From Archangium sp. (lineage in GTDB: Bacteria; Myxococcota; Myxococcia; Myxococcales; Myxococcaceae): DNA of 21,945 bases. The notes beneath the pieces were generated by a model, which was not told the origin of the DNA, ran no database searches, and saw only the letters and a program-made list of their open reading frames with translations. A program made the translations under genes and the position numbers. The stretch spans positions 1 through 21,945 of the forward strand of contig JAEUJR010000340.1 of NCBI GenBank assembly GCA_016793585.1. Direction: 5' to 3'. Shown one piece after another: positions 5,969 through 21,759 of this stretch. Numbering within the stretch: the stretch's first letter is position 1; each line of letters begins with the position of its first letter.

Positions 5969-7198
5969 ATGCAGCTGAAAAGCCTCACCAACCTGTTGTC
6001 ACTGCCGACGCGCACGAAGCCGCAGGTCGGCGCCACGCCCGCAGACGTCGTGTGGGAAGAGAACAAGTGGAAGCTGCTGCGCTACCGCGCGCGCCCCGAA
6101 GGCCTCGCGTACCAGACGCCGATGCTGCTGGTGCCGTCGCTCATCAACCGCCACTACGTGCTCGATCTCATGCCCGGCAAGTCGTTCGCCGAGTTCATGG
6201 TGAAGCGCGGCTTCGACGTCTACTGCATCGACTGGGGCACGCCGGGCGACGAAGACCGCTTCGTCACCTTCGACGACGTGGTCGATCGCTGGCTCGGGCG
6301 CGCGATTCGGGTGGTGGCGAAGACGGTGCCGCACGAGAAGGTGCACCTGCTCGGCTACTGCATGGGCGGCACGCTCACGGCCATTCACGGCGCCGTTCAC
6401 CCCGAGCACATCGGCTCGATGGTGGCCCTCGCCGCGCCGGTGCGCTTCAACGACGGCAGCCTGCTGTCGAAGTGGACGAACTCGCGTGGCTTCGACGTCG
6501 ACGCGCTCGTGAACGCGGTGGGCACCGTGCCGTGGCAGCTGTTGCAGTCGGCGTTTCACATGCTGCGGCCGACGCTCTCGCTCTCGAAGGCCGTCTCGCT
6601 GCTCGATCGCGCGTGGAACGACGAGTTCCTCGACGGGTTCCTCGCGCTCGAGACGTGGGGCAACGACAACGTGTCGCTGCCGGGTCAGTTCTACCGGCGC
6701 TACATCAAGGCGCTGTACCAGGAAGACGGGTTGCTCGAAGGGCGCTTCTCGCTGTCGGGCAAGAAGGTCGACCTGAAGAACATCACCTTCCCCACGCTGG
6801 CCGTCAGCTTCGAGCACGACAACATCGTTCCCGGCCCCAGCGCCGCGGCGTTGATCGACGCGATCGGCTCGAAGGTGAAGCAACACCTGCACCTGCCGGG
6901 CGGGCACGTCGGCGCGGTCGTCTCGAAGCACGCCGCGAAGACGCTCTGGCCACAGCTCGAGGCGTTCTACGCAGCGCACGACGCCGCGCCGGTGAAGGCG
7001 CAGCCGGTGCCCGAGGTCGTGATTCCGGCGGTGAGCGAGATCGCGCCGGTGGTGGCGAAGGTGGTCGAACTGAAGCCCGAGCAGAAGGCCAAACCCCAGC
7101 CACCGAAGCCTCCGCAGAAGGCGGCGAAGAGCGCTGAGGTGAAGCGGCTGCCGATCAAGAAGGCGCCGTCGAAGCAGTCACCGCGCATCGCCCGGTGA
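5969..7198 (+). CDS. phaC: poly(R)-hydroxyalkanoate synthase, class III/IV-type PhaC subunit, with Lys/Pro-rich tail
   Basis: A 409-residue protein that polymerises (R)-3-hydroxyacyl-CoA into polyester granules in the cytoplasm. The lipase-like box is G-Y-C-M-G with catalytic Cys131, and Asp284 ('EHDNIVPG') and His313 ('GGHVGAVVS') complete the triad. The three residues sit 18 positions before Cys149, Asp302 and His331 of Allochromatium vinosum PhaC, i.e. identical spacing, which supports a class III/IV synthase. 'VYCIDWGTPGDED' (84-96) is also typical. Such enzymes are normally about 355 residues and end near residue 336 here. The extra ~70 residues are low-complexity Lys/Pro/Ala/Val. Class III/IV synthases need a PhaE or PhaR partner; the 97-residue protein at 3893 is the only candidate in view. 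The 3' end overlaps the convergent TldD-like gene by 21 bases. Confidence 0.93.
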   Translation: MQLKSLTNLLSLPTRTKPQVGATPADVVWEENKWKLLRYRARPEGLAYQTPMLLVPSLINRHYVLDLMPGKSFAEFMVKRGFDVYCIDWGTPGDEDRFVTFDDVVDRWLGRAIRVVAKTVPHEKVHLLGYCMGGTLTAIHGAVHPEHIGSMVALAAPVRFNDGSLLSKWTNSRGFDVDALVNAVGTVPWQLLQSAFHMLRPTLSLSKAVSLLDRAWNDEFLDGFLALETWGNDNVSLPGQFYRRYIKALYQEDGLLEGRFSLSGKKVDLKNITFPTLAVSFEHDNIVPGPSAAALIDAIGSKVKQHLHLPGGHVGAVVSKHAAKTLWPQLEAFYAAHDAAPVKAQPVPEVVIPAVSEIAPVVAKVVELKPEQKAKPQPPKPPQKAAKSAEVKRLPIKKAPSKQSPRIAR

Positions 7199-8872
7199 CG
7201 AGAACGGGCTGGGCAGCAGCGGCGGTCGATCTTTCCCCTCCATCGACCGCTGCAGCTCGATCTCCTGCAGCAGCACCGCAGGCGCGACCGTCGACACCGG
7301 CACCATGCCGCTCTCGGCGCCGCAGAAGCCGTTGAAGACGCCCTCCTTCTTGCCGGTCGCGAGCACCTTGTTGATCGACGACAGCGGCGTGCCGACGATC
7401 TCGACGCCTCGCACGAGCGTCTCTTTGCCGTCGCGCACGTCGACCCGCACCACCATGCGCGGCGTGCCCTTGAAGGCCTGATAGCCGTACGAGGTGGTGT
7501 TCGTGTTGCCGCCCGTGATGTCGCGAATGATCAGCGCGTACGGTTTGCCCTGCCGCTTCGCCTCGGTGAGCAGCGCCTTCTTCAGCTCGACCTCGCTCAG
7601 ACGCTTCTTCGACTCGACGATCAGGTTCGCCATGCGCGCCACCGGCTTGCGGTTGCTCTGCGCGCGCCCGTGCCCGTTCGACCTCGTGAACCCCTCCGTC
7701 GGCCGCCGCGAGAGCAGGAAGCTCTTCAGCACGCCGTCTTGTACGAGGGTGACCCGCTGCCCGGCCACGCCCTCTTCATCGAAGGCGTAGTGGCCGTTGA
7801 GCGCCCGGCCAGCACGCTCCGCCAGGGTCGGGTCGTCGAAGACGCTCAAGAACGAGGGCAACACCGGCTTGCCCACCTGGCCGCGAAACGTCTTCCCCTC
7901 GGCATCGTTGTCCTGCCGCTCGCCCTCGAGGCGATGGCCGACCGCCTCGTGAAAGAGCACGCCAGCCGCGTCGGGCTCGAAGAGCGCCGGCCCGGTGTAG
8001 GGGTCGATCGTAGGCGCCGCCTTGAGCGCGAGCAGATCGGCCATCATCTTCGCGGTCTCCTTCGTGATCTCGTCGTCGCTCGGCAGCTGAGCTTCTCGCG
8101 GCGCGTACCAGTCACGGGAGTTCTCGAGCAGCTGCCCGTCGTCGGCCCGGGTGACGGCCGAGACGCGAACGCTGAACAACGTGTCCTCCGTCACGATGCG
8201 GGTGCCTTCACTCGACACGAACAGCCGCAACACCCTGTCGCCCGCGACGCGCACCTCGGAGTCGAAGAACGCCTTCTCGGACGCGAGCTTCAGCGACAGC
8301 GCCCTCGACAACGCGACCCAGCGATCTCTCGAGAACGAATACGCCGCGCGCGGGCCCACGAAGACCTCTGGCTCCTGCCTCGTGAACGACTGAGACCTGC
8401 CGGGCATGTCTACGGTGTAGACATCGTCGCCCTTCTTCTTGAGGAAGTTGAAGAGGGCGCTCTTGTACTTCTCGTCGATCACGAGCCAGAGCGCGGTGCG
8501 CAGGGCGGCCGGGTCGTCTTCGATCGGCCCCTGCTTGGGCGCGAAGAAGCTGGTGCCCTTCGTCGAGAACGTCAGATCGAGTTCGTCTCCGACGCTGCTG
8601 TCGAACTCGTAGGAACCGACCCGAACGTCGGCGGCGAGCTTGCGTTCGCGATCGGCCGAGTCGGTGACCAGGGCTCCGTACTTCGCGCCGAGCTCGTGGT
8701 GCAGGTAGTCCTTCACCTGCGCGCTCACGAAATAGGGCGGCGGGTTCTCCTTGAGCGTCAGCGACTGACGGCTGCGATCGACCTCGGCCACCATGGCCTC
8801 GAGCAGCTCGAGGCGGGCATCGGGTGGCGGCTTGGCGGCGACGGCGAGGGTGACGAGCAGGCTGAGCGTCAT
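7178..8872 (-). CDS. exported TldD/PmbA-family metallopeptidase homologue
   Basis: A 564-residue TldD-like protein. The zinc site H-E-A-V-G-H (308-313, HExxxH as in TldD) is followed by 'RLEGERQDNDAEGKTF'. A late Cys517 in 'FCGAESG' matches the third zinc ligand position of TldD. TldD normally works as a TldD-TldE heterodimer that degrades unfolded peptides in the cytosol and trims some RiPP precursors. Here the N-terminus begins 'MTLSLLVTLAVAAKPP', a short but plausible signal peptide, so the protein is probably exported (inference). At 564 residues it is about 80-100 longer than Escherichia coli TldD, mostly N-terminal. No TldE partner is in the window. Start ATG 8872 lacks a strong Shine-Dalgarno sequence. 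Confidence 0.87.
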   Translation of the reverse strand: MTLSLLVTLAVAAKPPPDARLELLEAMVAEVDRSRQSLTLKENPPPYFVSAQVKDYLHHELGAKYGALVTDSADRERKLAADVRVGSYEFDSSVGDELDLTFSTKGTSFFAPKQGPIEDDPAALRTALWLVIDEKYKSALFNFLKKKGDDVYTVDMPGRSQSFTRQEPEVFVGPRAAYSFSRDRWVALSRALSLKLASEKAFFDSEVRVAGDRVLRLFVSSEGTRIVTEDTLFSVRVSAVTRADDGQLLENSRDWYAPREAQLPSDDEITKETAKMMADLLALKAAPTIDPYTGPALFEPDAAGVLFHEAVGHRLEGERQDNDAEGKTFRGQVGKPVLPSFLSVFDDPTLAERAGRALNGHYAFDEEGVAGQRVTLVQDGVLKSFLLSRRPTEGFTRSNGHGRAQSNRKPVARMANLIVESKKRLSEVELKKALLTEAKRQGKPYALIIRDITGGNTNTTSYGYQAFKGTPRMVVRVDVRDGKETLVRGVEIVGTPLSSINKVLATGKKEGVFNGFCGAESGMVPVSTVAPAVLLQEIELQRSMEGKDRPPLLPSPFSSPGDAR

Positions 8873-11322: not shown

Positions 11323-12324
11323 TCAGCCGCGCACGAGCTCGAGCTCGATTCGCCCGTCGAGCTTCAATGCCAACAACACTCCGGTGATCTGCTCGGCCTC
11401 GGTCTTCGTCAGCAGATTGCGAAAGCCATCACCATCAGCCAGCTCGGCCTCCATCACGGGCCCGCGCTCGAGCCAACGCAGGAACCCGAGCGGCGTCAGC
11501 ATCGGCAACATGCCCTTGATCGGCCACAGCGTCGGGCGCTCCTCGAGCAGCTTGCGCAGCTGCGGGGCCTTCGGCCGAACGTCGCTCACACCTTCGTCGG
11601 CGTAGAGCACCGGTGGCGCCAGCGTTGCCTCGTCCGTCGAGTCATCGAAGAGCGCGCCGTACCTCGTCGGCACGCGCCCGCTCGTCACGAACGTCAACGT
11701 CACCGCCGTGTCGGGCGAGGGCCGGCGCAGGTGCAGAATGCGTCGCTCGTTCGGCAATACGCGCACCATCAGCTCGAGTGACGGTTTCGCGAGCTCGGCC
11801 TGCCGCGCGACTCGAGCCCGCAGCTCCGAGACGACGCGCGTGATCGCCTCGTTGAGCGCCGCTTCAGCCTGCTGCGCCCGCGCTTCGAGATCTTCCTGCG
11901 CGGCCTTCAGGCCACGCTTCGCCTCGGCCGCCAGCGCGTTGAGCTCGCTGCGCTTCGCCAGCACTTCCCCACCCGCCGCAGGGACGACGGTCTGCACTGC
12001 ACCGAGGAGCAACGCCCCCTGCTGCTCGAGGCGCTCCCGCTCCGACGCAAAGCTCGCCTTCACGGTGCGCAGCTCGGCCCGCAGCTCGTCCCACGCATCG
12101 TAGGCGGCTTCGACCGTCTCTGGGCGGGTCGCGAGCGCGGAGGAGGCGTCGCCCACTCCGACTGGTGCGGGCGGCTCGATCAGCGCACGCGGCGCCACCA
12201 CCACCGCGCGCGTCTCGACTGGCGTGTCACGCGGCAACGCTCGCGGCGGCGTCGCGCGGAGCGGATCTCTCCGCACCGGCCTTCGTTTCGGCTTCGCGCT
12301 CGGCCGCTTCTTCTTCGCTGCCAT
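11323..12324 (-). CDS. basic-tailed coiled-coil hypothetical protein
   Basis: A 333-residue protein of unknown function, last gene of a six-gene - strand operon; 9 bases separate it from the YtxH-like gene. Three parts can be seen. Residues 1-50 are very basic and Pro-rich ('MAAKKKRPSAKPKRRPVRR'), like a nucleic-acid-binding or surface-binding tail. Residues about 70-180 are Ala/Glu/Arg/Leu-rich with heptad character (coiled coil). Residues about 185-333 form a mixed domain with 'LPNERRILHLRRP', 'GFLRWLERGPV' and an ending 'LLALKLDGRIELELVRG', reminiscent of a winged-helix end (inference). No signal peptide or membrane segment is visible, so it is probably cytoplasmic or bound to the inner face of the membrane. 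Confidence 0.7.
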   Translation of the reverse strand: MAAKKKRPSAKPKRRPVRRDPLRATPPRALPRDTPVETRAVVVAPRALIEPPAPVGVGDASSALATRPETVEAAYDAWDELRAELRTVKASFASERERLEQQGALLLGAVQTVVPAAGGEVLAKRSELNALAAEAKRGLKAAQEDLEARAQQAEAALNEAITRVVSELRARVARQAELAKPSLELMVRVLPNERRILHLRRPSPDTAVTLTFVTSGRVPTRYGALFDDSTDEATLAPPVLYADEGVSDVRPKAPQLRKLLEERPTLWPIKGMLPMLTPLGFLRWLERGPVMEAELADGDGFRNLLTKTEAEQITGVLLALKLDGRIELELVRG

Positions 12325-12333
12325 TGAGCGACG

Positions 12334-12621
12334 TCAGACCTTCGCAGTCGCCGCAGCCGGCTGACCGTTCGTCTCGGGCGCCGTGGTGCCCTTGTTCAGC
12401 TTGGCCTTCACGTCTTCACGCAGCTCCTTGCCGGGCTTGGGCGCGAGCATGAGGCCCAGGCCGACGCCGACGAGCACTCCGGCTCCGAACAACGCGAGCG
12501 CCGGCACCAGCTTGTCCGACGCGGTCCGCCGCTCCTCGAGGCCGACGAGATCGAGCACGTCATCTTTGTCGACGTCGGCCAGCTTCTTCAGGTTCTTCAG
12601 CAACATCGCGGTCGCACTCAT
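12334..12621 (-). CDS. YtxH-like small membrane protein
   Basis: A 95-residue protein with one membrane segment at about 40-59 followed directly by 'LAPKPGKELREDVKAKL' (59-75). That is the glycine-rich helix plus 'APxxGxExRxDV' arrangement of the YtxH family of general-stress proteins. The N-terminal 35 residues are charged and helical; the tail is low-complexity Ala/Thr/Pro. The ATG (12621) overlaps the stop of the upstream gene (ATGA), so translation is probably coupled. Function in this family is poorly known beyond association with stress. Confidence 0.75.
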   Translation of the reverse strand: MSATAMLLKNLKKLADVDKDDVLDLVGLEERRTASDKLVPALALFGAGVLVGVGLGLMLAPKPGKELREDVKAKLNKGTTAPETNGQPAAATAKV

Positions 12622-12971
12622 GGTGACTCCTCTTTCTTCTGCGAAGACAAGATGCCGTCGACTGCCGACTCGGCCACGTCGAGCAGACGATCACGAACCG
12701 CGGGAATCGAGGCCAGCTTCATGCCGATGCGCAGCACCCGAAACGTGGTCGGCGTGAACAGGCCGCCGCCGAGCACGTAGCCGACGCCCAGCGCCGCCGC
12801 GACCATGCCGTACGGAGACTGCTCGACCTTCTCGGTGATGCCGACCGCGTCGGCGACGCCGTTGAGCGCCGAGTTCGCGTTCTGCAGCACCTCGGTCACC
12901 TGCTCACCGATCTCCTTCGCGGCGATCGGCGCGGCCCCTTCGAGCACCTGCTTCGTCGAGGGCTCGCTCAT
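12618..12971 (-). CDS. small membrane-associated hypothetical protein
   Basis: A 117-residue protein. ATG 12971 is chosen because it overlaps the upstream stop as ATGA, matching the other junctions of this operon; an ATG five codons upstream (12986) is possible. It has a helical N-terminus (1-50), a Gly-rich hydrophobic segment 'GMVAAALGVGYVLGGGLF' (55-72), then an amphipathic helical half with Arg/Lys and an acidic end. I recognise no family. The Gly-rich YVLGGGLF segment is similar in style to those of its neighbours. Confidence 0.68.
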   Translation of the reverse strand: MSEPSTKQVLEGAAPIAAKEIGEQVTEVLQNANSALNGVADAVGITEKVEQSPYGMVAAALGVGYVLGGGLFTPTTFRVLRIGMKLASIPAVRDRLLDVAESAVDGILSSQKKEESP

Positions 12972-13186
12972 CGGCGCGACGCCCATCGGCCCACGAGAAA
13001 GCCCAACGCCGCGGCGCCGATCAGCACCGTGCCCGGGTTCTTCTTGATGAACGTCTTCACCTGCTCGTTCACCTCGGTCACCTGCTCCATCGCCTGCTCG
13101 AGCTGGGGCGCGAAACGCTCCTGCAGCTCTTTGAGTTGTTCAGGCAGCTCGGGCATCGCCGGAGCCTTGCCAGCCTCGTTCGCCAT
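12968..13186 (-). CDS. DUF883/ElaB-YqjD-like small membrane-anchored protein
   Basis: A 72-residue protein. ATG 13186 is preferred because AAAGGA at 13195-13200 sits 8 bases upstream; an ATG at 13213 overlapping the previous stop would add 9 residues. Residues 1-48 are an acidic/Gln/Lys amphipathic helix. Residues 49-72 read 'KNPGTVLIGAAALGFLVGRW' followed by A-S-R-R, the C-terminal tail-anchor with twin-Arg end found in DUF883 proteins (ElaB, YqjD, YgaM). In Escherichia coli this group attaches to the inner membrane and can bind ribosomes. The same role here is only a possibility. Confidence 0.75.
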   Translation of the reverse strand: MANEAGKAPAMPELPEQLKELQERFAPQLEQAMEQVTEVNEQVKTFIKKNPGTVLIGAAALGFLVGRWASRR

Positions 13187-13194
13187 GGTCGTCG

Positions 13195-13200
13195 TCCTTT
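13195..13200 (-). promoter_or_regulatory. ribosome binding site deciding start at 13186
   Basis: Read on the - strand, AAAGGA with following CGACGACC lies 8 bases before the ATG at 13186. It is the best Shine-Dalgarno match in this operon and favours that ATG over the overlapping ATG at 13213. Confidence 0.6.
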
Positions 13201-13209
13201 CGGTGGAGT

Positions 13210-13452
13210 TCATCGCCGCCCCCACCAACGGCCAAGCAGGTACCCGGCGACGAACAGCCCGCCGATGGTCAGCACAGGGTGTTTGCGCACCGTCTCGCGC
13301 CACTTCCCGACCGCCCCGAGATCGTGCTCGAGCGTCTCGAGCTGCCCCTTGAGGCGCTCCCGCACCGCATGCAGCTTCGCCTTCACCTCGTCGGGCGTCT
13401 GCGTGCGCGCGAGGGACGAAGGCGGTCGAACCGTGATGGCCGAGTCGCTCAC
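13210..13452 (-). CDS. DUF3618/DUF883-like small membrane-anchored protein
   Basis: An 80-residue protein starting at GTG 13452, which overlaps the upstream stop (GTGA). Residues 18-55 form a charged helix ('TPDEVKAKLHAVRERLKGQL'). Residues 57-80 read 'KHPVLTIGGLFVAGYLLGRW' followed by W-G-R-R, a single C-terminal membrane helix with an Arg end. The layout matches DUF3618 or DUF883 small membrane proteins. It is close in design to the next gene product, suggesting an old duplication or shared complex (inference). Confidence 0.72.
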   Translation of the reverse strand: MSDSAITVRPPSSLARTQTPDEVKAKLHAVRERLKGQLETLEHDLGAVGKWRETVRKHPVLTIGGLFVAGYLLGRWWGRR

Positions 13453-13841
13453 TTCGCGTCTCCTTCCTGGCGGAGCACGATCGACGAGGTGTCTTCGAGC
13501 TCGGTCAGCGTCTCGTGCATCACCTTCTTCTCGTTCAGCTGCTTCGCCGCCACCGCGATGCCCGCCACGCCACCGATCAGGTTCACGAGGCCGACCAGCA
13601 GAAACGCGAGATCGGCCGGCATCACCCGGCGCAAGACCAGCGCCAGGGCGACGCAGAGAAAGCCGTAGCCGACGAGAATCAGGGGAGCCAACGCCGCGAT
13701 CACGCCCACACGAACGCCGATGAAGCGTGCGTCTTGCGCGAGCTCGAGGCGAGCCAGTCGAATGTGCTGCGCCGTCAGCTCGCTGAAGCCGTCTACGACG
13801 TCACGCAGCTGGGTGCCGAGCGCCATCAGGGCGGGCACCAT
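13449..13841 (-). CDS. holin-X (phage holin superfamily III)-like membrane protein
   Basis: A 130-residue protein, first of the six-gene operon. It has an amphipathic N-terminal helix (8-40), two membrane helices (about 45-70 and 77-99) and a charged C-terminal helix. This is the architecture of the 'putative Actinobacterial Holin-X' / phage_holin_3_6 family, which despite its name is widespread on chromosomes away from phages. No lysis genes are nearby, so a phage role is unlikely. The start is ambiguous: GGGAGG at 13843-13848 (- strand) is only 1 base from ATG 13841 and 4 bases from GTG 13838, and a further ATG lies at 13826. Confidence 0.75.
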   Translation of the reverse strand: MVPALMALGTQLRDVVDGFSELTAQHIRLARLELAQDARFIGVRVGVIAALAPLILVGYGFLCVALALVLRRVMPADLAFLLVGLVNLIGGVAGIAVAAKQLNEKKVMHETLTELEDTSSIVLRQEGDAK

Positions 13842-13933
13842 ACCTCCCGGCGAATTCGGGTGATCTCAATTCGTGGGCGTCTCGCGCCACGCGATGAATG
13901 CGGCCGTGGGTCGATTGTCATACAAGCCGCGCC
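13842..13933. promoter_or_regulatory. divergent intergenic region between the holin-X operon and the M1 gene
   Basis: The 92-base gap must carry the promoters for both the leftward six-gene operon and the rightward M1-family gene. An imperfect operator-like inverted repeat CGAATT-N11-AATTCG lies at about 13851-13873. I cannot assign -35/-10 boxes with confidence. Confidence 0.4.
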
Positions 13934-16510
13934 ATGACGACCTCCCTCCTGCTGGCTTGCGTGCTCGCTGCTGGAAACCCGGCGGCGTTCCTGCCGAAGA
14001 ACCGCCCCTACGACGCTCAGAGCTACCGCATCGAGATGACGCTCGCCGACGACGGCTCGTTCAAGAACAAGCTCATCGCGAAGGTGAAGACGACGAAGGC
14101 CACCGGCGAGCTCGAGTTCGACGCCTATGATCTCAACGTCGAGTTCGCGCTGGTCGACGGCAAGCCCGCGACGCCGTCTCCCAAGTACGACCCCGAGACG
14201 CGCACCGGCACGTTGACGCTCAAGACGCCAGGCCTCGCGGCGAACAAAGAGGTCACCGTCGAGATCTCGTACACGGGCAAGGCCGGCACGAACCACGAAG
14301 GCTTCTTCAAGGTGACCGACGCCGAGAACGACAAGCTGCTGCCGTACTACTTCACGCACTTTCAGCCGCACTTCGCGCAGCGCTTCTTCCCCAACAACGA
14401 TCAGCCCAGCGACAAGGCGTCGGTCGAGGTCTACGCCATCGTCGACAGCCGCTACACGGTGTTGAGCAACGGCGTGAAGTCGAAGGACGAGGTCTTTCAG
14501 GAGCAGGGCAAGAACCTGCGCCGCGTGGAGTGGAAGCAGGAGAAGCCGCACGCCACGTACCAGACGGCCATCGCCATCGGTCAGTTCGAGGCCGTCTCGG
14601 TGAACGAAGATCTGCCCAGCACCATCTGGGTCGCTCCCGGCCGCAAGGATCGTGCGTGGGTCGTCGTCAACGAGCTCAAGAGCCTGTGGAACTTCCAGGT
14701 CGGCTACACGGGCACGAAGTACGGCTGGCCCAAGCTCGACATCGCCGCCCTGCCCCGCTTCTTCTGGAGCGGCATGGAGAACACCGGCCTCATCTTCCTC
14801 CGCGAGTCGAAGGTGAGCGTCGAGGTGAAGAACGATCAGCTCGCGCGCCCCGTCGTGATGAGCCTGCTGTCGAACGAGATGGCGCACCAGTGGTTCGGCA
14901 ACCTCGTCACCAGCAAGTGGTGGGACGACGTGTGGCTCGACGAAGGCCTCACGACGTACCTCGGTGAAGCCACCTTCGACGACTCCAACGGCAACGAGCA
15001 GGTCGAGGTCGAGCGCACCGTCGCCATCGTCGAAGACTACTTCCGCCAGGAAGACGGGCCCCGCGCCCACGCGCTGGTGACGAAGGGCGCCACCGCGGCC
15101 GAGTCGTCCGACTCCGTCACCAACCGCAAGGGCGCCTCGGTCGCCCGCATGCTCGAGCTCTGGCTCGGTCAGAAGGAGTTCAAGGCCGGCCTCAAGGCGT
15201 ACCTCGACAAGTACGCGTACCAGAGCGCCACCACTGACGACTTCTTCAAGGCCGTGCTCGAGGCGAACAAGAAGGAGAAGGACAAAGACCTGAAGGCCTT
15301 CAAGGACGCGTGGGTCAGCAAGAAGGGGTACCCGGTGATCTTCCCCGAGTTCAGCTTCGGCGGTTCACAGGTGACGATCACGATTCGCCAGCAGAACTCG
15401 AACCCGTCAGAGAAGGGCCCCTTCGTCTTCAAGCTGCCCATCGTCATTCACCGCGACAACGAGCCTGCGTACACGGTGAAGCAGACGATTCTCGTCGACA
15501 AGCCCGAGGTGAAGGTCAGCTTCGACGTCGCCGCCGCTCCGCAGTGGATCAACTGGAACGAGAACTTCGGCGCGCTGGTGCGGGTGAACAAGACGACGGT
15601 GCCCGAGGACCAGTGGGTCGACGCCGCCCGGAACGACCCCGACCCGACCTGGCGCCTCATCGCCGCGTGGAACCTGCTCGGCGAGCTCGGCAACCCGAAC
15701 ATGGAGTCCGAAGCGCGCCCCACCGACGCCGCCCTGAACGCGGTGCTCGACGTGCTCGCAAAGGATCCCTCGCCCTACGTGCGTGAAGCGGTGATGAAGC
15801 GCCTCACCGACTCGCGCTTCAAGCGCCTGCCGAAAGACTTCGCCGCCATCGGCCTCAAGCTCGCCAAGAAGCCCGAGAACCTCAACGACGACCCGCTCGG
15901 CTACATTCGCGTGCGCTGCGCCGCGCTCGAGATGCTCGGCAAGACCGACGCGCCCGAGGGCCACGCGTACATTCTCGAGCAGCTCGGCAAGCGCGAGATC
16001 GACATCAACTACCTCGGCGCCTTCGCCGGTGGCGCCGCCCGCATCAACACCGCCGCCGCCCTCGCGACGCTGAAGTCGGCCATGGTCACGCAGAAGGGCC
16101 GCGGCTACCCGTTCTTCCGCCGCACCGCCGAGGCGCTCGGCTCGATGGAGGGCCCCGAGGTGATCGCGTCGATCAAGGAGCTGCTCACCCAGAACGCGAA
16201 CAACCCCGAGCTCACCCGCCAGCTCTTCAACCGCCTCGCCGACAACAAGGCGCTGCGTGAGAACCCCGACTTCGCGCCGATGATCGCCGTGCTCGTCACC
16301 GATGACGCCTTCAGCGGCGACGACATTCGCGAGCTCATGCTGGCCTCCCTCGACGACGTGAAGACGCCCGTCGCCAAGGAGTCGCTGCTCGACATCGTCA
16401 AGAACTCGAAGAGCGAGCAGCTGAAGTCGAGCGCCAAGCTGGTGCTCGACGCCAACTTCCCTGCTCCGCCGCCCGCCGCCCCCGCGAAGGACCCCAAGAA
16501 GAAGAAGTGA
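13934..16510 (+). CDS. exported M1-family aminopeptidase homologue with altered active site
   Basis: An 858-residue protein from ATG 13934 (an upstream ATG at 13898 gives no signal peptide). Signal peptide is about 1-14. Order: N-terminal beta domain, thermolysin-like domain with G-M-E-N (280-283) and 'NEMAHQWFGN' (314-323), Glu337 in 'WLDEGLTTYLGE', beta-sandwich (about 470-555), helical HEAT-like domain (about 570-845) and a Pro/Lys tail. M1 enzymes use HExxH-x18-E for zinc and a Tyr before 'KGA'. Here Glu315, His318 and Glu337 are kept with correct spacing, but the first His is Asn314 and the Tyr position (two before Lys in 'KGAS') is Asn397. It may have weak, changed or no peptidase activity. 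It is the first gene of a three-gene + strand run; the next gene begins 3 bases after its stop. Confidence 0.9.
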   Translation: MTTSLLLACVLAAGNPAAFLPKNRPYDAQSYRIEMTLADDGSFKNKLIAKVKTTKATGELEFDAYDLNVEFALVDGKPATPSPKYDPETRTGTLTLKTPGLAANKEVTVEISYTGKAGTNHEGFFKVTDAENDKLLPYYFTHFQPHFAQRFFPNNDQPSDKASVEVYAIVDSRYTVLSNGVKSKDEVFQEQGKNLRRVEWKQEKPHATYQTAIAIGQFEAVSVNEDLPSTIWVAPGRKDRAWVVVNELKSLWNFQVGYTGTKYGWPKLDIAALPRFFWSGMENTGLIFLRESKVSVEVKNDQLARPVVMSLLSNEMAHQWFGNLVTSKWWDDVWLDEGLTTYLGEATFDDSNGNEQVEVERTVAIVEDYFRQEDGPRAHALVTKGATAAESSDSVTNRKGASVARMLELWLGQKEFKAGLKAYLDKYAYQSATTDDFFKAVLEANKKEKDKDLKAFKDAWVSKKGYPVIFPEFSFGGSQVTITIRQQNSNPSEKGPFVFKLPIVIHRDNEPAYTVKQTILVDKPEVKVSFDVAAAPQWINWNENFGALVRVNKTTVPEDQWVDAARNDPDPTWRLIAAWNLLGELGNPNMESEARPTDAALNAVLDVLAKDPSPYVREAVMKRLTDSRFKRLPKDFAAIGLKLAKKPENLNDDPLGYIRVRCAALEMLGKTDAPEGHAYILEQLGKREIDINYLGAFAGGAARINTAAALATLKSAMVTQKGRGYPFFRRTAEALGSMEGPEVIASIKELLTQNANNPELTRQLFNRLADNKALRENPDFAPMIAVLVTDDAFSGDDIRELMLASLDDVKTPVAKESLLDIVKNSKSEQLKSSAKLVLDANFPAPPPAAPAKDPKKKK

Positions 16511-16513
16511 TCG

Positions 16514-17275
16514 ATGCTCGCCTTCGTCGTGCTGGTCGGGCTGCAGGCGGCGCCCGTGAAGCTGGTGGCACCGCCCTGGTCGGTGGTGCGGGTCGACGCC
16601 GACGTCGCCGGCTACTTCGCAGAACACTTCGAACAGGAGCTGCGCGGGCGCGGCTTCGAGGTCGTGACGCCCAGAGACATCGCGTCGATTCTCGGGCTCG
16701 AGCGGCAGAAGCAGCTGCTGGGCTGTGCGGATGACGGCTGCGCCGTCGAGCTGGGCAACGCGCTCGGCGCCGCAGCGCTCGTCAACGCCAGCGTCGCCCA
16801 CCTCGGCGGCGGGTTTCGCGCCACGTTCAGGGTGATCGCGTCGACCGATGGCCACGCACTCGCCCAGGCATCGGCGGAAGGTGAGGACGAAGCGACCTTC
16901 TTGAAGAGCCTCACGCTGGCGGCGGGCTCGATCGCGCGTGAGTTCGGCTACGCCCCACCCGCCAGTGCGCTGTTGTGGTTGTCGGCGGGGGCGGCGGTCG
17001 TGCTGGTAGCTGGCAGCGCGGTGGCCTTCGTCGCCGCGAAGCTCCAGCTCGATGCCCTCGAGCGCGAGCTCGCTGCCTCTCGGCTGGTCACCACGAAGGC
17101 CGAGAACCTGGCGCTCGGAGGGAAGGCGGCAGAGATCGTCGGGTGGACCTCGGGCGGCCTGGCCCTCGGGGCTGGCGTGACGGCCATCGTCGCCGTCCTC
17201 TCGGGGCGCTCGCCAGCCATCGCCTTCACGCCAACCGCGAACGGCGCCGTTCTTTCGTTCGGTGGCTCATGGTGA
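16514..17275 (+). CDS. exported hypothetical protein with two membrane helices
   Basis: A 253-residue protein starting 3 bases after the M1 gene. A signal peptide (1-13) is followed by a mixed alpha/beta domain (15-145) with 'ELRGRGFEVVTPRDIASILG' and a Cys pair at 71 and 76 ('GCADDGCAVELGNALGA'). Such domains occur in TolB-N-terminal or CsgG-like proteins of myxobacteria (resemblance only). Two hydrophobic segments follow, at about 152-176 and 208-231, separated by a charged loop. The end 'AVLSFGGSW' is aromatic. Function is unknown. Its stop overlaps the start of the next gene, so the two are translationally coupled. Confidence 0.7.
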   Translation: MLAFVVLVGLQAAPVKLVAPPWSVVRVDADVAGYFAEHFEQELRGRGFEVVTPRDIASILGLERQKQLLGCADDGCAVELGNALGAAALVNASVAHLGGGFRATFRVIASTDGHALAQASAEGEDEATFLKSLTLAAGSIAREFGYAPPASALLWLSAGAAVVLVAGSAVAFVAAKLQLDALERELAASRLVTTKAENLALGGKAAEIVGWTSGGLALGAGVTAIVAVLSGRSPAIAFTPTANGAVLSFGGSW

Positions 17276-20614: not shown

Positions 20615-21646
20615 GTGCCCAATCCCCGGTTTGCGCAGCTGATCGAACGCGCCGAAGACGCCCTCGAAGCGGGCAACGCCGACGACGCGCTGAAGATCGC
20701 CCAGGAGATGCTGCGCGAGGAGCCGGACGACATCGACGCGCTCGACTTGATGGCGGTCGCGCACCGCACGGCGGGCGATCTCGAAGACGCGGTCGAGGCC
20801 TACGAGCGCTTGCGGGTGATCGAGCCGAAGAACCCGGCGTGGGTGATCGCCGAGGCCGATCTGCTGATTCGCGAGGCGGAAGACGATCGGGAGCTGATCG
20901 AGCAGGGCCTCGAGCTGCTGGAAGATGGCGAAGGCCTGATTCGCGGCGACGACGAGCTGCTGTTCGAGTCAGAGCTGCTGCGCGCCACCGCGCTCAATCA
21001 GCTGGGTGACTTCACCGAGGCGCTGGCGAGCATTCGGGTGGCGCTCGACGTCGACGCAGAGCACCCCGAAGCGAGGCTCGAGCAGGGGCAGGCCTTGTTC
21101 GAGCTCGGCCGATTCGATGAAGCGCGGCGCGTGTACCAGTCGCTCGTGAAGGACTACCCCGACGAGGCGTGGGCGCATCACTACCTCGGGTTGCTGGCCG
21201 AGCGACGCGGCGAGGCCCCCGAGCCGTTCTTCCAGAAGGCGCAGTCACTTTCGCCAGAGGACTTTCCGCCGCCCGTTCACCTGAGCGCGGAGGAGTTCGA
21301 CGCCACCGTACAGCAGGCGATCGCAGCGCTGCCCGATCACGCCAAGCCGCACCTCGACAACTGCGTGATCGACGTGCAGCCGATTCCCTCGGACGAGGAC
21401 CTGAAGGAGGGCGGCATCTCTCCGCTGATCCTCGGCGTGTTTCGCGGCCTCGCCATCGACGAGCGCAGCCCCATCGAGGCCAGCCACCACGAGACCGCCC
21501 GCATCACGCTCTACCAGCACAACCTCGAGCGTTTCGCCCGCACACGTGACGAGCTGCTCGAAGAGATTCGCATCACCGTGCTGCACGAGGTCGGGCACCT
21601 GCTCGGCCTCGATGAAGACGAGCTCTACGAACGCGGCCTCGACTGA
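20615..21646 (+). CDS. TPR protein with C-terminal zincin-like metallopeptidase domain
   Basis: A 343-residue protein starting at GTG 20615. The N-terminal two thirds are TPR-like helical repeats, for example 'AEDALEAGNADDALKIAQEM' (13-32), 'MAVAHRTAGDLEDAVEAYER' and 'LFELGRFDEARRVYQSLVKD'. The C-terminal third (about 225-343) looks like a zincin_1 (PF06262-type) minimal metallopeptidase domain. It contains 'PLILGVFRG', 'ITLYQHNLERFAR' and the zinc motif H-E-V-G-H (324-328) followed by 'LLGLDEDEL'. In stand-alone members the domain is about 110-130 residues. Fusion to TPRs suggests protein-protein recruitment of the peptidase. Substrate is unknown. It is probably cytoplasmic, as there is no signal peptide. 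Confidence 0.85.
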   Translation: MPNPRFAQLIERAEDALEAGNADDALKIAQEMLREEPDDIDALDLMAVAHRTAGDLEDAVEAYERLRVIEPKNPAWVIAEADLLIREAEDDRELIEQGLELLEDGEGLIRGDDELLFESELLRATALNQLGDFTEALASIRVALDVDAEHPEARLEQGQALFELGRFDEARRVYQSLVKDYPDEAWAHHYLGLLAERRGEAPEPFFQKAQSLSPEDFPPPVHLSAEEFDATVQQAIAALPDHAKPHLDNCVIDVQPIPSDEDLKEGGISPLILGVFRGLAIDERSPIEASHHETARITLYQHNLERFARTRDELLEEIRITVLHEVGHLLGLDEDELYERGLD

Positions 21647-21664: not shown

Positions 21665-21759
21665 CGGCGGAGCATGGGAATCGAACCCACCAGCCGACGC
21701 TCGCGCGCCAACTCAACGGTTTTGAAGACCGCACCGTTCACCAGACCGGAAGCTCCGCC
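21665..21759 (-). tRNA. selC: tRNA-Sec (anticodon TCA)
   Basis: Read on the - strand, an 8-base-pair acceptor stem (GGCGGAGC with GCTCCGCC) and discriminator G enclose a D stem of 6 pairs (one G-A mismatch) with a 4-base loop. The anticodon stem has loop CTTCAAA (anticodon TCA at 21725-21723), followed by a long variable arm (about 22 bases) and a T arm with GGTTCGATTCC. The long acceptor, small D loop, large variable arm and TCA anticodon are hallmarks of bacterial tRNA-Sec. CCA is not encoded (AAC follows the discriminator), so it must be added enzymatically. The organism should therefore carry SelA, SelB and SelD. Confidence 0.95.

Follow-up and report, generated by a model that had tools for sequence, protein, structure and literature searches.

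A probable M1-family pseudo-aminopeptidase of Myxococcia whose catalytic centre was altered in place

The stretch of DNA analyzed here (the window, 21,945 nucleotides of contig JAEUJR010000340.1 from Archangium sp.) encodes an M1-family protein in which the first zinc ligand and the transition-state Tyr have been replaced, and which belongs to a clade that has lost the zinc His at this position throughout. We consider it probable that this is an exported pseudo-aminopeptidase of M1 fold, whose M1 cleft serves not to hydrolyze peptides but to capture or scaffold peptides or proteins. A second M1 pseudoenzyme was found at the same locus in a related genome and appears to represent a separate loss. 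Coordinates are collected in Table 1.

Table 1. Features of the M1 gene, its neighbor block and the second M1 pseudoenzyme (window positions unless a contig is given)
Feature	Position	Strand	Basis or remark
M1-family pseudo-aminopeptidase (probable), 858 aa	13934..16510	+	M1_N, M1 catalytic-like, third beta and HEAT-like C-terminal domains
Probable export signal, a short hydrophobic stretch at about residues 1-18	13934..13987	+	sequence, ortholog N-termini
Gln144, aligned with the substrate-amine Glu (PSA Glu180)	14363..14365	+	18/18 clade; also 9/86 catalytic-type relatives
His146, possible replacement ligand (speculative)	14369..14371	+	18/18 clade; 2/86 catalytic-type relatives
GMEN exopeptidase motif, residues 280-283, retained	14771..14782	+	identical in 18/18 clade members
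NExxH, residues 314-318, replacing HExxH	14873..14887	+	lacks the first zinc His but has Glu315 and His318
Asp336 (replacing Asn) and kept third-ligand position Glu337	14939..14944	+	
Ser392 replacing conserved Phe (PSA/ERAP1 Phe433 position, substrate contact)	15107..15109	+	
Asn397 in place of the transition-state Tyr (PSA/ERAP1 Tyr438)	15122..15124	+	codon AAC
Divergent neighbor block, marks the locus	11323..13841	-	common to loci of catalytic-type orthologs
Members of the block	13449-13841 (PF07332 protein), 12968-13303, 12618-12986, 11323-12324	-	
P0122 (L060), second M1 pseudoenzyme, more degenerate, 843 aa	G059:C426:17026-19521	-	frame open

The reading frame of this gene matched the Pfam models Peptidase_M1 (155 bits; cut-off 27.7), Peptidase_M1_N (74.6 bits; cut-off 25.8) and HEAT_2 (39.1 bits). 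Structure modelling, which had been proposed as a check, gave an AF2 model with a pLDDT of 92.8, in which the M1 fold spans the full length and residues 1–15 lie under 50. Domains, structure and the GxMEN motif all place the protein in family M1, and the original prediction of an M1 homolog with NExxH-x18-E, GMEN and Asn at the catalytic Tyr position was confirmed. By sequence, the closest PDB entries were glutamyl, puromycin-sensitive (PSA) and leucyl-cystinyl aminopeptidases; scores stayed below the cut-offs of the NCBIfam aminopeptidase N/LTA4H equivalogs (TIGR02412, 194 vs 591; TIGR02414, 107 vs 718; TIGR02411, 140 vs 762). TAF2, a TFIID subunit of eukaryotes, is a non-catalytic M1 relative; it was not among the fold matches listed, which speaks neither for nor against kinship. 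An alternative in-frame ATG at 13898 would lengthen the reading frame by 12 residues, and ortholog sequences start at or near the Met of 13934. Export of the protein is probable, given its short hydrophobic N-terminus. Third-position GC of the gene is 94%, and two antisense open frames over it (13826-15070, minus strand, 414 aa; 15407-16855, minus strand, 482 aa) are probably a by-product of this high value. A codon-bias scan found no promoters or terminators near the gene.

Codon 314, at 14873, is AAC, and the motif reads N314-E-M-A-H318 with E337 18 residues past H318, i.e., the NExxH-x18-E spacing. N397 directly precedes R-K-G-A. In the HMMER alignment to PSA, N397 was matched to the Tyr in ISYSKG, S392 to the Phe five residues upstream and Q144 to the Glu of TQFE; these PSA residues are taken to be Tyr438, Phe433 and Glu180 (numbering of PMC10343166). 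Previous work on PSA found that Tyr438Phe lowered kcat 1000-fold and Phe433Ala weakened peptide binding 3.6–5.9-fold, and that Glu180 and the GAMEN Glu probably hold the substrate amine (PMC10343166). Tyr438 of ERAP1 is expected to stabilize the oxyanion (PMC8421391). In aminopeptidase B, 18 mutants of the HEXXHX18E motif lost activity, changes of the first His to Y, A or F each gave 0% activity, and any change of a zinc ligand or of the general base is described as abolishing it (PMC2241622); Asn at the first ligand is not among the mutants in the passages of that paper used here. Compared with E. coli PepN, ERAP1, IRAP and PSA (16–21% identity in Foldseek alignments), the window protein carries other residues at the first zinc ligand, the transition-state Tyr and the substrate-contact Phe. 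It has neither HExxH-x18-E nor the transition-state Tyr, both marks of an active M1 zinc aminopeptidase, and from its sequence we infer that it cannot be a normal zinc aminopeptidase.

A search at E ≤ 1e-20 gave 585 homologs, of which 120, including the window protein, were listed, examined and aligned. The clade comprises 18 full-length rows (P0002, the window protein, to P0019; 81–100% identity); the clade counts exclude P0020, a partial row in which only position 397 (Asn) is covered. In this alignment of 120 listed rows, position 314 is Asn in 17 clade members and Leu in one, and position 397 is Asn in 15, Thr in two and Tyr in one, whereas His314 and Tyr397 occur together in all of the next 86 rows (P0021–P0106) and in all of the last 15 (P0107–P0121). 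Those 86 catalytic-type relatives keep HExxH-x18-E, Phe and Tyr without exception. Glu315, His318, Glu337 and GMEN are kept in every clade member. Asp336 is found in 17/18 and in 0/86 catalytic-type relatives, and a single clade member has Leu314 and Val336. The lone Tyr397 belongs to P0015 (L005 in the DNA), which branches from within rows that have Asn or Thr. Replacement of the amine-anchor Glu by Gln144 was also considered as a hallmark of the clade, but this was weakened by nine of the 86 catalytic-type relatives that carry Gln as well.

The idea of a full-length pseudo-peptidase survives this comparison of orthologs (Asn or Leu at 314 in 18/18 vs His in 86/86). With regard to the two positions singled out in the original prediction, 314 is nearly fixed, but 397 is less uniform than was implied (N/T/Y, 15/2/1). 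Orthologs with both His and Tyr, named in advance as evidence to the contrary, are indeed found among the more distant relatives (86/86 listed) and not within the clade; therefore, the loss is placed on the clade stem and the pseudo-peptidase reading is not refuted. Each change needs a single base, which left room for a sequencing or assembly artefact. Clade DNA came from seven metagenome-assembled Myxococcia genomes (L001–L007), and codon 314 is AAC in 8/8 assemblies (these and the window); Asn is present in 17/18 clade proteins, and loss of His314 is agreed by 17 further protein clusters. An artefact is excluded by these orthologs, and its probability is negligible. A scan of 195 genomes of the phylum for ExxHQWFG preceded by a residue other than His recovered six of the seven clade genomes and one site in G149, whose surroundings are unlike an M1 protein. 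The seventh, G002, was missed because it reads HHWFG, and the scan is not a census, since it is blind to codons beginning with C and to proteins of the P0122 type.

In a quick LG+G4 tree of 79 of the 120 rows, with four active-site columns removed and a program warning of long branches among outgroup rows, the 18 rows formed one clade (SH-aLRT 100) nested among catalytic-type rows, with a stem of 0.31 and an inner length of 0.91 changes per column. Between residues 30 and 850, 181 sites reach 90% conservation or more among the 86 catalytic-type rows, and 11 of them are changed in the clade: V244, G264, N314, D336, L339, T340, S392, N397, A404, T434 and V461. All lie in the catalytic domain (11/73 vs 0/108 elsewhere; Fisher p=2.8e-5). 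The changes at 314 and 397, which had been regarded as independent losses, are not: both belong to this set of 11 common to the clade. At the 97% level, eight of 123 near-invariant sites are changed, again all in the catalytic domain, and a control of 24 other listed clades (those with the longest stems, 0.05–0.40) showed 0–3 such changes. Thus, the changes in the clade are more numerous and more concentrated than divergence alone would give.

No in-frame stop is present in any of the seven genome copies of the clade gene. Whole-gene NG86 dN/dS was 0.043–0.28 over 28 pairs (about 0.2), with 0.17–0.28 by domain and 0.25 in the active-site core, and was no higher in the clade than in the six closest catalytic pairs listed (0.25–0.39), all of these values being rough because NG86 ignores codon bias (third-position GC 94%). 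The C/N ratio was 0.80 in the pseudo clade (interval 0.61–1.07) vs 0.96–1.43 in ten catalytic sets; stronger C-terminal constraint in the clade is only suggested, as the intervals overlap. By sequence, the window protein answers to what is understood by a pseudopeptidase, namely a homologous fold that lacks catalytic residues and persists in a lineage under selection.

In the family of G001 (96 genomes), a match at E ≤ 1e-100 was present in 24 genomes, seven of window type and 17 others. Each of the 24 has a single copy (that of G055 spans two contigs), and HExxH is present in 16 of the 17 others, the exception being G059. Duplication with loss in one copy was rejected; 0/24 genomes hold catalytic-type and pseudo copies together. 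Extra flanking DNA was fetched around 14 of the 17 (L063–L076). A PF07332-type neighbor was present on the divergent side in 14/14 of these loci, with a gap of roughly 1.5–1.8 kb in L069, L071 and L074, and the next neighbor gene was also present in 12, the other two running off the contig. The same type of neighbor occurs at the window locus and at 4/7 pseudo loci; in L002, L003 and L007 it is found elsewhere in the genome. In the window, as in many relatives, three small proteins (12618-13841, minus strand), the first of them the PF07332 protein, are divergent from the M1 gene. We take this PF07332 protein to be YqjE-like. The synteny is one-sided, since window genes downstream of the M1 gene had no match in L063–L076. 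Judged by these neighborhoods, the window gene is the positional ortholog of the zinc-motif-bearing M1 gene of related Myxococcia. Such catalytic-type orthologs (e.g., P0022 and P0032) are 55–57% identical to the window protein, have the same length and domains and share its divergent neighbor; the AF2 fold of P0022 matches that of the window protein, and the P0022 type keeps HExxH-x18-E, Phe and Tyr.

No conserved operon partner of the M1 gene was found in the neighborhoods of L001–L007. A functional link to the next gene (16514-17275) was rejected, as it has a match in L001 and none in L002–L007. Elsewhere in the window, a protein with TPR repeats and a Zincin_1 domain (20615-21646, plus strand; HEVGH intact) is metallopeptidase-like, and a 564 aa protein (7178-8872, minus strand; HEAVGH intact) is a TldD/PmbA-like metallopeptidase. 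ARAGORN detected a selenocysteine tRNA with anticodon tca at 21665-21759 (minus strand); therefore, the organism may use selenocysteine.

The exception in G059, P0122, is one protein cluster with two member sequences on three contigs, and it occupies the same locus as the orthologs of the window gene (its neighborhood is L074). It reads RALAD in place of HExxH and GAEG in place of GMEN and lacks the Tyr segment, with the third-ligand Glu kept; HExxH and Tyr are intact in all 20 proteins listed alongside it (35–49% identical). A quick tree of 65 rows, with eight active-site columns removed, placed P0122 apart from the window's clade, and the starred branches force two changes. Holding P0122 and the clade together cost 180.8 log units (AU p=8.3e-6). 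The different nature of the P0122 changes points the same way. The case for a separate loss is strong but not final, since the grouping was chosen with the tree already in view, the tree is quick, and P0122 is long (branch 0.78) and of odd composition. It is this lineage, not the second change in the window protein, that appears to be the separate second loss. Identity between P0122 and P0123 is 0.50 in the N domain, 0.44 in the catalytic, 0.65 in the third and 0.50 in the C-terminal domain, compared with 0.56, 0.61, 0.57 and 0.51 between P0123 and P0096, and on this basis the loss in P0122 is concentrated in the catalytic domain. No third loss appeared among the 20 proteins listed with P0122 or in a further homolog search, whose seven new distant homologs all keep HExxH. 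One in-frame TAG was observed in L138 (G156:C5:171743-174268, minus strand), a distant relative with HExxH intact.

The drift at position 397 and the long P0122 branch might suggest a decaying gene, in which catalysis was lost under relaxed selection and the protein is disappearing. However, the frame is open in 7/7 genome copies, dN/dS is low both by domain (0.17–0.28) and in the active-site core (0.25), the AF2 fold is confident, and P0122 itself diverged most in the catalytic domain (0.44 vs 0.61) and not in the third and C-terminal domains. We regard decay as very improbable.

Every one of the seven pseudo genomes encodes further M1 proteins, at least two of them with HExxH-x18-E and Tyr intact and 24–28% identical to the window protein. 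These could be the targets if the window protein regulated or inhibited another M1 of its own cell, as a dominant subunit or substrate trap in the manner of M16 alpha/beta; in M16, active peptidases with inactive partners are known, also from prokaryotes (PMC11266112). Such a partnership is quite unlikely: the other M1 genes lie on different contigs in 7/7 genomes (although some contigs are short), and other M1s also occur in genomes that have the catalytic-type gene, so that no link between the loss and a partner is evident. Compensation by an additional M1 is likewise not supported, other M1s being present in pseudo and catalytic-type genomes alike. MPP-alpha and the prokaryotic M16B partners resemble the window protein as pseudo-metallopeptidases with prokaryotic examples, but they belong to family M16 with an HXXEH motif, and the prokaryotic M16B pair is a two-gene operon, whereas the window gene has no adjoining active M1 partner gene (PMC11266112).

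The retained residues also bear on whether a metal site was rebuilt, with Asn314, His318 and Glu337 plus Asp336 or His146 binding zinc or another metal for different chemistry or substrates. In a subtree of 0.91 changes per column, all 18 members have Glu315, His318, Glu337 and GMEN unchanged, Asp336 (17/18 vs 0/86) and His146 (18/18 vs 2/86) mark the clade, and Tyr397 is present in 1/18. Nevertheless, Tyr397 is lost or drifting in the other members, one member has Leu314 and Val336, and every aminopeptidase B first-His mutant tested was dead (PMC2241622). A rebuilt metal site is therefore unlikely.

In the reading that we favor, a pseudo-aminopeptidase, a zinc-motif-bearing M1 gene of Myxococcia was changed in place at the same locus. 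The sequences show that the catalytic centre of this clade has been dismantled by replacement of the zinc His with Asn or Leu, of Tyr with Asn or Thr (17/18) and of Phe with Ser, together with neighboring changes; the window protein would have lost the ability to hydrolyze peptides. What purifying selection has kept is the fold along with the GMEN edge, Glu315, His318, Glu337 and the HEAT-like domain at the C-terminus. Peptides or proteins may be held in the M1 cleft, which lies between the catalytic-like and HEAT-like domains. A cleft that still binds would fit the retention, under constraint, of the GMEN edge, of two metal-ligand positions, of the general-base Glu and of the C-terminal domain. 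The nearest functional model for such a binding role is yeast Tma108, an M1 pseudopeptidase thought to hold nascent chains via its substrate pocket (PMC11266112). By analogy, the M1 fold would be used for binding rather than cutting, with the difference that the zinc His and Tyr are gone in the window protein, and according to the same review Tma108 may still be active (PMC11266112). It should be noted that the invariance of Glu315, His318, Glu337 and GMEN is not obviously needed by a purely structural protein, and that one clade member has Tyr397 (P0015; L005); both count against this explanation, as does the failure to find a conserved operon partner. More tentatively, and with some doubt on our part, the exported M1/HEAT lineage may have a conserved non-enzymatic job (e.g., as a periplasmic capture scaffold), so that hydrolysis was dispensable and catalysis was discarded at least twice at the same locus, and in the window's clade the cleft was remodelled through Ser392, Asn397, Asp336 and His146 to give a new site for a ligand or metal.

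Known pseudoenzymes already include one M1 example as well as inactive subunits of M16 that have prokaryotic homologs (PMC11266112); the section of that review on other pseudo-metallopeptidases has Tma108 as its one M1 case, and its prokaryotic cases are only M16B homologs. A bacterial M1 pseudoenzyme was not found among the literature matches listed, a scope that left out most subscription journals. The same holds for a bacterial clade of probable M1 pseudo-aminopeptidases, changed in place, and a second, apparently separate loss at the same locus. The source names of clade members include 'M1 family aminopeptidase' (P0013), and domain matches alone are an unsafe basis for naming such proteins aminopeptidases. 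A bacterial M1 catalytic centre lost in place, together with the second loss, would provide a natural comparative system for the non-cutting roles of M1 proteins.
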